A stretch of 64,000 bases of DNA from contig SVGE01000005.1 of assembly GCA_015056545.1 (NCBI GenBank), positions 62,001-126,000 on the forward strand, in the 5' to 3' direction. This document shows positions 7,279 through 31,946 of the stretch, in pieces. Each line of letters begins with the position of its first letter. Position 1 is the stretch's first letter. The position numbers and the translations under genes are program-made. Below the pieces are notes generated by a model. It was not told the DNA's origin and did no database searches. It was given only the letters and a program-made list of their open reading frames with translations. This DNA is from Clostridiales bacterium (GTDB taxonomy: Bacteria; Bacillota; Clostridia; TANB77; SIG350).

Positions 7279-7388
7279 CTCCTCTCAACAAAATATCTCT
7301 ATACCATGAGGCATAGAGATATTAAATCCGTATCTATGCCTCGGTAGGACTTACAAACTTGCCTACTTTCTATGGCTTATTTATTTTT
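7279..7388 (-). promoter_or_regulatory. L10 ribosomal protein leader with attenuator
   Basis: The minus-strand leader contains TCCTACCGAGG, which resembles the conserved core of the bacterial L10 leader. Two mutually exclusive 10-bp stems follow. GAGGCATAGA (7333-7342) pairs with TCTATGCCTC (7308-7317). Alternatively AATATCTCTA (7314-7323) pairs with TAGAGATATT (7292-7301) followed by TTTTG, a terminator. Binding of L10-L12 upstream would favour one fold. Confidence 0.75.
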
Positions 7389-8074
7389 TAGAATTTTGTT
7401 ACATTAACTTTTAAACCAGGTCCCATTGTTGTTGTTAATGAGATACTTCTTAAGTATTGTCCTTTAGCTGCTGCTGGTTTAGCTTTAATTATAGCTTCCA
7501 TTAAAGTTGTTAAGTTTTCTGATAATTTTTCTGCACCAAATGATACTTTACCAATTGGACAGTGAATAATATTAGTTTTATCTAATCTATATTCAATTTT
7601 ACCAGCTTTAATTTCTTGAACTGCTTTTGCAACATCCATAGTAACTGTTCCTGATTTTGGGTTTGGCATTAATCCTTTAGGTCCTAATAATTTACCTATT
7701 CTACCAACTACACCCATCATATCTGGAGTAGCAACTATAACATCATAGTCAAACCAGTTTTCTTTTTCGATTTTTGGTAATAATTCTTCACCACCAACAA
7801 AATCTGCACCAGCATTTTTAGCTTCTTCTAATTTATCACCTTTAGCAAATACTAAAACTCTTTGAGTTTTACCAGTTCCATTAGGTAATACAACAACACC
7901 TCTAACTTGTTGATCAGCATGTTTTGAATCAACACCTAATTTTACATGTAATTCAACAGATTCATCAAATTTAGCTTTTGGCATTTTTAATAATGCTTCT
8001 AATGCTTCTGCTGGATCATATATTTTAGATGTATCAACAACTTTTAAACATTCTTGATATCTTTTTCCTTTCAT
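7388..8074 (-). CDS. rplA: 50S ribosomal protein L1
   Basis: 228 residues, normal length. It forms the L1 stalk by the E site. Recognised by [31 protein letters not shown] and the C-terminal [12 protein letters not shown] strong AAAGGAGG site precedes the ATG. It lies between rplK and the L10 leader, in the usual order. Confidence 0.97.
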
Positions 8075-30346: not shown

Positions 30347-31555
30347 CTATTTTAATTGCCATGGGTTATCTGCACTACTTCCATCACCTGTTACATTTGC
30401 TATTTGCGTACTAGAGCTTAGTGTTACTACAGGACGAATGGCAAAACACTCACCTGTCCCACCTCCACTAGCAAAACCTAAATTAAATGAATTTAAATAG
30501 TTATTACCCACATAGTATGTATTAAAATAAGCCTCGCCAGAGTTGAAATATACATCAGCACAAGTAGAAGCCAACCAATATTCCGTATCTCTAAATATTA
30601 ATTCTTTTTCTATTTCACTTACATTTATACAGTCTGATTTTCCGTAAGAATAAGCTAAATCTAATTTTTCATCATCACTTGTGAAATACCATTCTCTTAC
30701 ATCATAACCTGTTTCTATTATCACATCTCCAAATGTTGTTCCTAACTCTTTATTTACTTTTGTTCCCTCAATATTATAGTAATATGGTACTGGTTTCATT
30801 TTTAATACTTCATTTACATCTTCTACTTTTAAGTTCCTTCCCCCGTATACTTTTGCACATATTTCATTTAATATATCTGGTCCATATGTATATCCGTTTG
30901 CTTCATAAAAGTTTATCTTCTCTACTGGATTTGTACTCACTAATGTTACTTTCGTTCCATCATTTTTTAATACTCTCCACATTATATCTTGGTATTCTAT
31001 TATGTCTTCACCTTCATCATATGAATAGTCTTCATCTATATCATTGAATATCCAATATGTTTCTTCTTCTGCTATTTTATATACTTCTCTATCAGCTTCT
31101 GGTATATTATAATCTACATAATCTCCTACTTTAAATAATGCTACTGCTGATGTTTTTGCTACTCCTATCCCTAATTCTGTAAGCCATATACTATATGGGT
31201 CATCAGTTCTTGTTCCTAATACTATTTCTCCATTACTTATTCCTACTAAATCCTTATATTCTTCTTTAAATTCGGGGATTATTTTTTTGATTTTTTCATA
31301 TTCTGTTTCATTTATTACCCCACCTTCTCCATTTCCGGTTGCTAATTCTATTTGTTTTTCTGCATTTTTTACTGCTAGTATTTCTTGATATGTTCTTATA
31401 TCACTTTTAAATACTGCTTCTTTTGCCTTTTCTATTATACCACCTTCCATAAACGTAACTATAACTGCTGCTGTTAATATTATTAGCACAATTATTGTTA
31501 CTATTAGTGCAACTAGTGATATACCTGATGTTTTACTATTCTTTAAATTTCTCAT
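30347..31555 (-). CDS. prepilin-like protein with DUF6273 domain
   Basis: 402 residues. The N-terminus NSKTSGISLVALIVTIIVLIILTAAVI is a type IV prepilin-like signal with Gly before the cleavage point and a hydrophobic helix, though Ile-Ser replaces the usual Phe-Thr. The body ends with WLAST...GECFAIRPVVTL, the DUF6273 pattern common in surface proteins of gut Clostridia. It is likely exported and anchored or assembled as a pseudopilin. No pilus machinery lies nearby. A structured leader lies upstream. Confidence 0.75.
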   Translation of the reverse strand: MRNLKNSKTSGISLVALIVTIIVLIILTAAVIVTFMEGGIIEKAKEAVFKSDIRTYQEILAVKNAEKQIELATGNGEGGVINETEYEKIKKIIPEFKEEYKDLVGISNGEIVLGTRTDDPYSIWLTELGIGVAKTSAVALFKVGDYVDYNIPEADREVYKIAEEETYWIFNDIDEDYSYDEGEDIIEYQDIMWRVLKNDGTKVTLVSTNPVEKINFYEANGYTYGPDILNEICAKVYGGRNLKVEDVNEVLKMKPVPYYYNIEGTKVNKELGTTFGDVIIETGYDVREWYFTSDDEKLDLAYSYGKSDCINVSEIEKELIFRDTEYWLASTCADVYFNSGEAYFNTYYVGNNYLNSFNLGFASGGGTGECFAIRPVVTLSSSTQIANVTGDGSSADNPWQLK

Positions 31556-31723
31556 AATCTTTTCTCCCTTCGTATTTTATTTTTACTTTATACAATTTTA
31601 TTGTATAACACTTTTAGTTTAAGCTAAGTTGTTTTTTATTGTAGTTTTTTTATTTTTATTACCTCCTTTCTCGGCTCTTTATTATATTATTGCAAAATAT
31701 ATTTTTATATAATTTGGCAAATT

Positions 31724-31776
31724 AAAAGAACCTAAGACTACATTACTTTTTATCGTAATATATTCTTAAGTTCTTT
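31724..31776 (-). terminator. terminator-like hairpin in the prepilin leader
   Basis: AAAGAACTTAAGA pairs with TCTTAGGTTCTTT around an inner stem-loop, followed by TTTTAATTT on the minus strand. It follows the structured segment at 31789-31876 and precedes the gene by 170 bases, an attenuator layout. Confidence 0.55.
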
Positions 31777-31788
31777 GCAAAAATTGGC

Positions 31789-31876
31789 ATGTCAATTAAA
31801 GATGTTTTTATACTATAAACATCCCCCCCCTAGTATTTAGCACTTTCTGGCAGTTTCGCTTAGGTCTATTTGACAT
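31789..31876 (-). ncRNA. structured RNA leader of unknown class
   Basis: On the minus strand ATGTCAA (31870-31876) pairs with TTGACAT (31789-31795). Inside are nested short stems (CCTA/TAGG, AGC/GCT, ACT/AGT) with a GCCAGAA loop, a run of eight G, and the hairpin GATGTTT/AAACATC (31801-31823). It does not match the c-di-GMP-I or -II consensus I know. A riboswitch is inferred from the following terminator only. Confidence 0.4.
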
Positions 31877-31946
31877 TTTTCTCACCTCTTGTTTGTAATA
31901 TATCATATGTGGTTTAACTTATCAATAGTTTTAGTATATAAAGTGT

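Follow-up and report, generated by a model that had tools for sequence, protein, structure and literature searches.

The window, the whole stretch of 64,000 nucleotides analysed here, carries ahead of a prepilin-like gene a leader that is very probably one copy of a genome-wide, phase-variable, translation-coupled transcription attenuator, and the copy in the window is predicted to be OFF. In this leader a short open reading frame (ORF) runs into a poly-G tract, and its reading frame behind the tract would decide whether a translating ribosome reaches a premature terminator (Table 1).

Table 1. Features predicted from the sequence at the leader locus, all on the minus strand; coordinates are positions in the window.
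Feature	Position	Strand	Description
Predicted promoter	31897..31925	-	Sigma-A-like; TTGATA -35, 17-nt spacer, TGA-TATATT extended -10
Shine-Dalgarno site GAGGTG of the leader ORF	31883..31888	-	In the 30 aligned copies, GGTG or GGGTG located 7-10 nt upstream of the start codon
Leader ORF with the assembled tract of 8 G, MSNRPKRNCQKVLNTRGGMFIV	31808..31876	-	22 codons, ending 34 nt ahead of the terminator; predicted OFF
Poly-G tract, 8 G	31823..31830	-	Putative slippage site; 7-13 G among copies
Small hairpin directly behind the tract	31800..31824	-	Contains the stops of both short frames; forms in 30/30 copies
Remainder of the long frame (9 G)	31743..31822	-	44-codon ORF; TAA at 31743-31745 within the terminator hairpin; predicted ON
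Premature intrinsic terminator	31724..31776	-	21-bp hairpin at 31725-31776, then TTCTTTT ending at 31724
5' UTR, terminator to gene	31556..31723	-	168 nt; long type
Prepilin-like gene	30347..31555	-	402 aa; downstream of the leader; C-terminal domain resembles the target domain of the diversity-generating retroelement (DGR) in paralogues

The leader unit occurs about 34 times in the 1.45-Mb genome, with 82-93% identity, as found by a search of the window's own genome. The analysis of the copies was based on the stretches around them, and 30 copies were aligned and scored. Wherever the sequence behind a copy is long enough (29 copies), a prepilin-like gene follows, with the first ~70 residues of the encoded proteins nearly identical, and the remaining copies run off contig ends. 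The C-terminal parts of these proteins differ and, judged by eye from the translations, consist of lectin-like variable domains, a second related domain or leucine-rich repeats. The genes upstream of the copies are unrelated and the homology starts at the promoter, where a TTGAAA...TATGATATATTACA-like block is common to nearly all aligned copies, and sigma-A-like promoter matches were not enriched relative to shuffles. Prepilin-like cassettes were also seen inserted between unrelated housekeeping genes (e.g., L016 on contig C3), and no match to the leader was found in the viral contigs searched. For the window's own prepilin-like protein, no useful family was obtained from Pfam, NCBIfam or PDB sequences, and the DUF6273 label given to it in the initial annotation found no support in Pfam or NCBIfam.

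The start codon of the leader ORF lies exactly at 31876, the edge of the segment noted earlier, and is followed by 15 codons and then by the G tract. The 46 nt before the tract show no length change in 30 copies, with indels in both flanks, and the start codon is ATG in 26 copies and TTG in four. This pre-tract segment has seven variable codons and no in-frame stop in the 30 copies, and the other two frames each contain one to three stops in every copy. Considering that the segment is invariant in length, that its start is conserved and that one frame is open, the stems described in the initial annotation are better read as codons. Within the ORF, AAAGTGCTAAATACTAGGGG (31827-31846, minus strand) is invariant or nearly so in the 30 copies, even at third codon positions; an RNA motif, a nascent-peptide effect or recent gene conversion are candidate reasons, and the attenuator model leaves this invariance unexplained.

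The C8/G8 run at the tract is the only G or C run of at least six in the window, and its length varies among the paralogous copies of this one assembly. From these differences between copies, we infer that the tract probably slips within a population. G runs of at least nine are expected 0.15 times per genome by chance, and those among the runs listed for this genome are located in these leaders. In a few copies, the small hairpin directly behind the tract has TTC/GGA replacing TTT/AAA.

The terminator hairpin is strongly supported (-23 kcal/mol, z -8.05; not matched by any of 200 shuffles), and its T-tract is interrupted. The initial annotation, which had placed this hairpin 170 nt before the gene, was right about it, the distance to the start codon being 168 nt. 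Across 30 copies, 99.7% of cells are paired and nearly all substitutions are pair-keeping G-U/A-U interchanges, with no double compensatory changes in these copies, which is constraint without true covariation. The UTR behind the terminator measures 154-236 nt in most copies and 61-68 nt in eight. In the long-UTR copies, a perfect Shine-Dalgarno-like AAGGAGGT (31661-31668, minus strand, in the window) is kept between terminator and gene, with no start codon close behind. The eight short-UTR copies (e.g., L036, L023, L031) have in place of the long UTR AAGAACTT(A)GG, which repeats part of the 5' arm of the terminator, and then a CCATTA...TAATGG hairpin.

The reading frames are arranged such that a single tract length out of every three, mostly 9 G, gives an ORF of 42-51 codons that stops 24-51 nt into the terminator hairpin (hairpin length 47-51 nt) in the 30 scored copies, while the other two frames stop 34-40 nt before the terminator, or 22 nt in one copy. 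Linker indels in several copies shift the downstream frame, yet one frame is still open to the terminator. Two copies fit the attenuator reading less well: in L036 the long frame slightly overruns the hairpin, and in L021 the frames are shifted by a 1-nt loop deletion. Four of the 30 scored copies (L020, L025, L027 and L036) are in the long, predicted ON frame in the assembly. When one such linker was shuffled by dinucleotides, ~27% of the shuffles had the same one-in-three geometry, which is therefore weak evidence at a single locus; the geometry counts only because it is recurrent in diverged loci with different repeats. An effect of the tract on nothing but the stability of the mRNA or the translation of the gene, or variation of the repeat without function, would agree with this frequency among shuffles and with the general instability of G runs. 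However, chance would produce homopolymers of this length far more rarely, yet they are kept in ~34 copies, and the terminator and the frame geometry are conserved together with the tract, making this explanation very improbable.

The same layout was observed with other repeats in relatives. A DNA-level search of the order beyond the own genus gave weak AT-rich matches only, and G9 runs in relatives are sporadic, with no equivalent poly-G leader recognised among them. In two genomes from another family of the order (L096 in G007 and L097 in G003), G9 runs lie near the ends of short ORFs and are followed by terminator-like hairpins; these are possible further switches. The genome G030, from another family of the order, has prepilin-like genes behind a different leader with the same plan in about 26 copies, in which a Shine-Dalgarno site and an ATG precede (N)ETVAxLHTHTHT, encoded by (AC)8-12, and then a large hairpin. 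Two frames of this leader stop 10-14 nt behind the repeat and one stops at 33 nt, at the foot of the hairpin, where the long frame usually ends rather than inside it. The (AC)n leader pattern was found in 11 of 287 genomes of the order, belonging to eight genera, and a control pattern in none. L171 has its three stops at 70, 14 and 6 nt past the repeat and a hairpin covering about 47-98 nt, and L174, L205 and L170 are similar. In L173 (genome G039) and L203 (genome G140), the long (AC)n frame stays open across the terminator region and continues into the surface or prepilin-like gene behind it, so that here the repeat may directly switch a translational fusion. Besides, an uncultured Clostridia metagenome-assembled genome (L066) has one copy with (AG)16 and one with (AG)11; in both, a hairpin immediately follows the repeat, the frames stop 81, 19 and 11 nt downstream of the repeat, and the terminator is at about 54-95 nt. 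The genes behind the (AC)n and (AG)n leaders are mostly prepilin-like. In the prepilin leaders of G001, G017, G006, G022 and G032, no repeat-bearing leader ORF was recognised.

These variants also bear on two explanations in which the repeat would be sensed by other means. In his and thr leaders, repeated codons stand in a leader ORF ahead of a terminator, and an amino-acid attenuator in which starvation arrests the ribosome at the Gly codons of the G run, or at the His/Thr codons of the CA repeat, would share this layout. Such stalling would also affect the terminator. Nevertheless, the repeat lengths do not preserve one reading frame, which differs downstream of the repeat from copy to copy, the codons differ by lineage (Gly; His-Thr; Arg-Glu) while the repeat character persists, and the controlled genes encode surface proteins rather than biosynthetic functions, so that we give this explanation very little credence. 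The tract could also be the length-dependent target of a trans-acting C/U-rich small RNA, as in Helicobacter pylori, where a variable G tract in the 5' leader of tlpB sets expression and the small RNA RepG pairs with the untranslated tract for gradual control (PMC8295292). The variable homopolymeric G tract is common to both systems, but only here does it lie inside an ORF with a Shine-Dalgarno site and ahead of a terminator, and relatives have CA and AG repeats at the same place; a role as small RNA target is thus highly unlikely.

A phase-variable, translation-coupled attenuator has a close precedent in Streptococcus gallolyticus, in which GCAGA repeats in a leader peptide gene alter its length (Danne et al. 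2014, PMC3894217). Expression of pil1 is low if the leader stops 39-49 nt before a premature terminator and high if it stops in or next to the hairpin, and start-codon and terminator mutants confirmed this (PMC3894217). The mechanism and the ON/OFF direction proposed here are based on this precedent, in which the distances are nearly the same (PMC3894217). As in pil1 and pil3, a short repeat lies in a leader-peptide ORF with a ribosome-binding site, followed by a predicted premature terminator and a pilus gene; the short frames mostly stop 28 nt or more ahead of the terminator, with a single copy at 22 nt, the usual distance being about 34-40 nt against the 39-49 nt in S. gallolyticus, and the long frame ends in or just before the hairpin. 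In contrast to S. gallolyticus, the repeat is poly-G here (AC or AG in relatives) instead of GCAGA, an extra hairpin lies directly behind it, ~34 dispersed copies are present instead of two loci, the bacterial order is different, and prepilin-like type IV proteins take the place of sortase pili, with several targets here also under a DGR. In Escherichia coli pyrBI, a 44-codon leader ORF extends into the terminator and coupled translation prevents termination, with UTP being sensed via polymerase pausing. The window's long frame likewise is a 44-codon ORF that reaches the terminator, but its frame would be set by DNA slippage.

Based on these comparisons, we propose the following scheme. Transcription would start near 31890, a ribosome would load on the leader ORF at 31876, and poly-G slippage at replication would shift the reading frame. 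With 8 or 10 G, the stop would fall about 34-39 nt ahead of the terminator, within the small hairpin, and the ribosome would leave, the terminator would fold and transcription would end (OFF). With 9 (or 12) G, the ribosome would enter the 5' arm and stop in the loop or the 3' arm, the terminator would be blocked, and the polymerase would continue into the prepilin-like gene (ON). The independent switching of ~34 copies would then give a population mosaic of pilus-like proteins.

The initial annotation had seen a closed multi-stem segment in front of the terminator and a riboswitch-like layout, for which it proposed an Rfam covariance search and a covariation test as checks. Folded alone, 31785-31880 reaches -17.0, where shuffles average -14.7 (z -0.82) and 42 of 200 do at least as well, and no covariation above shuffles was found in the 5' stems of the 30 paralogous leaders. 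The leader segment as a whole folds better than shuffles (z -4.64) because of the terminator. The Rfam search gave no family match for the leader at gathering or loose thresholds, with chance matches only, and the covariance model of the c-di-GMP riboswitch (GEMM) did not match in the leader. The same database identified elsewhere in the window, at 7281-7393 on the minus strand, a ribosomal protein L10 leader (RF00557, 50.8 bits, above the cut-off). An antiterminator pairing of the ORF's CCTAAG with the terminator's CTTAGG was also considered and rejected, as inspection of the alignment showed it in some copies only and not co-varying. A ligand-sensing riboswitch, for c-di-GMP or another ligand, whose 5' stems control the terminator would account for a leader and terminator before a pilus-like gene and for the folding of the leader segment as a whole, but with a 5' part no better than shuffles, no covariation, no Rfam match, variable positions that follow codons in a fixed frame and a repeat whose length differs among copies, it is very improbable. 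The regulatory leader with a premature terminator thus stands, its riboswitch character does not, and sensing is more likely done by a ribosome that translates a phase-variable short ORF. This ORF, its G tract and the repetition of the unit in the genome had escaped the initial annotation.

Besides the leaders, the genome encodes one reverse transcriptase, adjoined by Avd-like and MutS-I-like proteins and a template repeat (contig C1; L036 497-2622, minus strand), with the bAvd match (36.9 bits) just below the cut-off. The 3' ends of nine or more dispersed prepilin-like genes match the template repeat, and part of the poly-G-controlled genes are therefore DGR targets. In the three closest variable repeats, 77 of 82 mismatches are at template adenines and five elsewhere, so that reverse transcriptase, Avd-like protein and a template/variable repeat pair with adenine-directed mismatches are all present in this genome, as in other DGRs with remote targets; the difference is that the targets here also lie behind phase-variable leaders. 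The window's own gene matches the template repeat weakly and may be a degenerate target.

Our search of open PMC papers yielded no report of DGR targets behind phase-variable leaders, nor of such attenuators with poly-G or dinucleotide repeats, and the papers found describe this attenuator type for two pilus loci of one Streptococcus species. We consider it reasonably likely that surface diversity in this bacterium has two layers, in which ~34 phase-switching attenuators pick members of the prepilin-like family and one DGR rewrites the tips of some of them, and that repeat-driven attenuators with interchangeable repeats (G, AC, AG) are recurrent across an order of small-genome uncultured bacteria. 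The attenuator reading predicts ON and OFF from tract length modulo 3. Overall, the ~34 occurrences in 1.45 Mb and the other repeats in further genera suggest a general, regulator-free bet-hedging of surface structures in small-genome bacteria, and the coupling to DGR targets would pair gene choice with targeted hypermutation.
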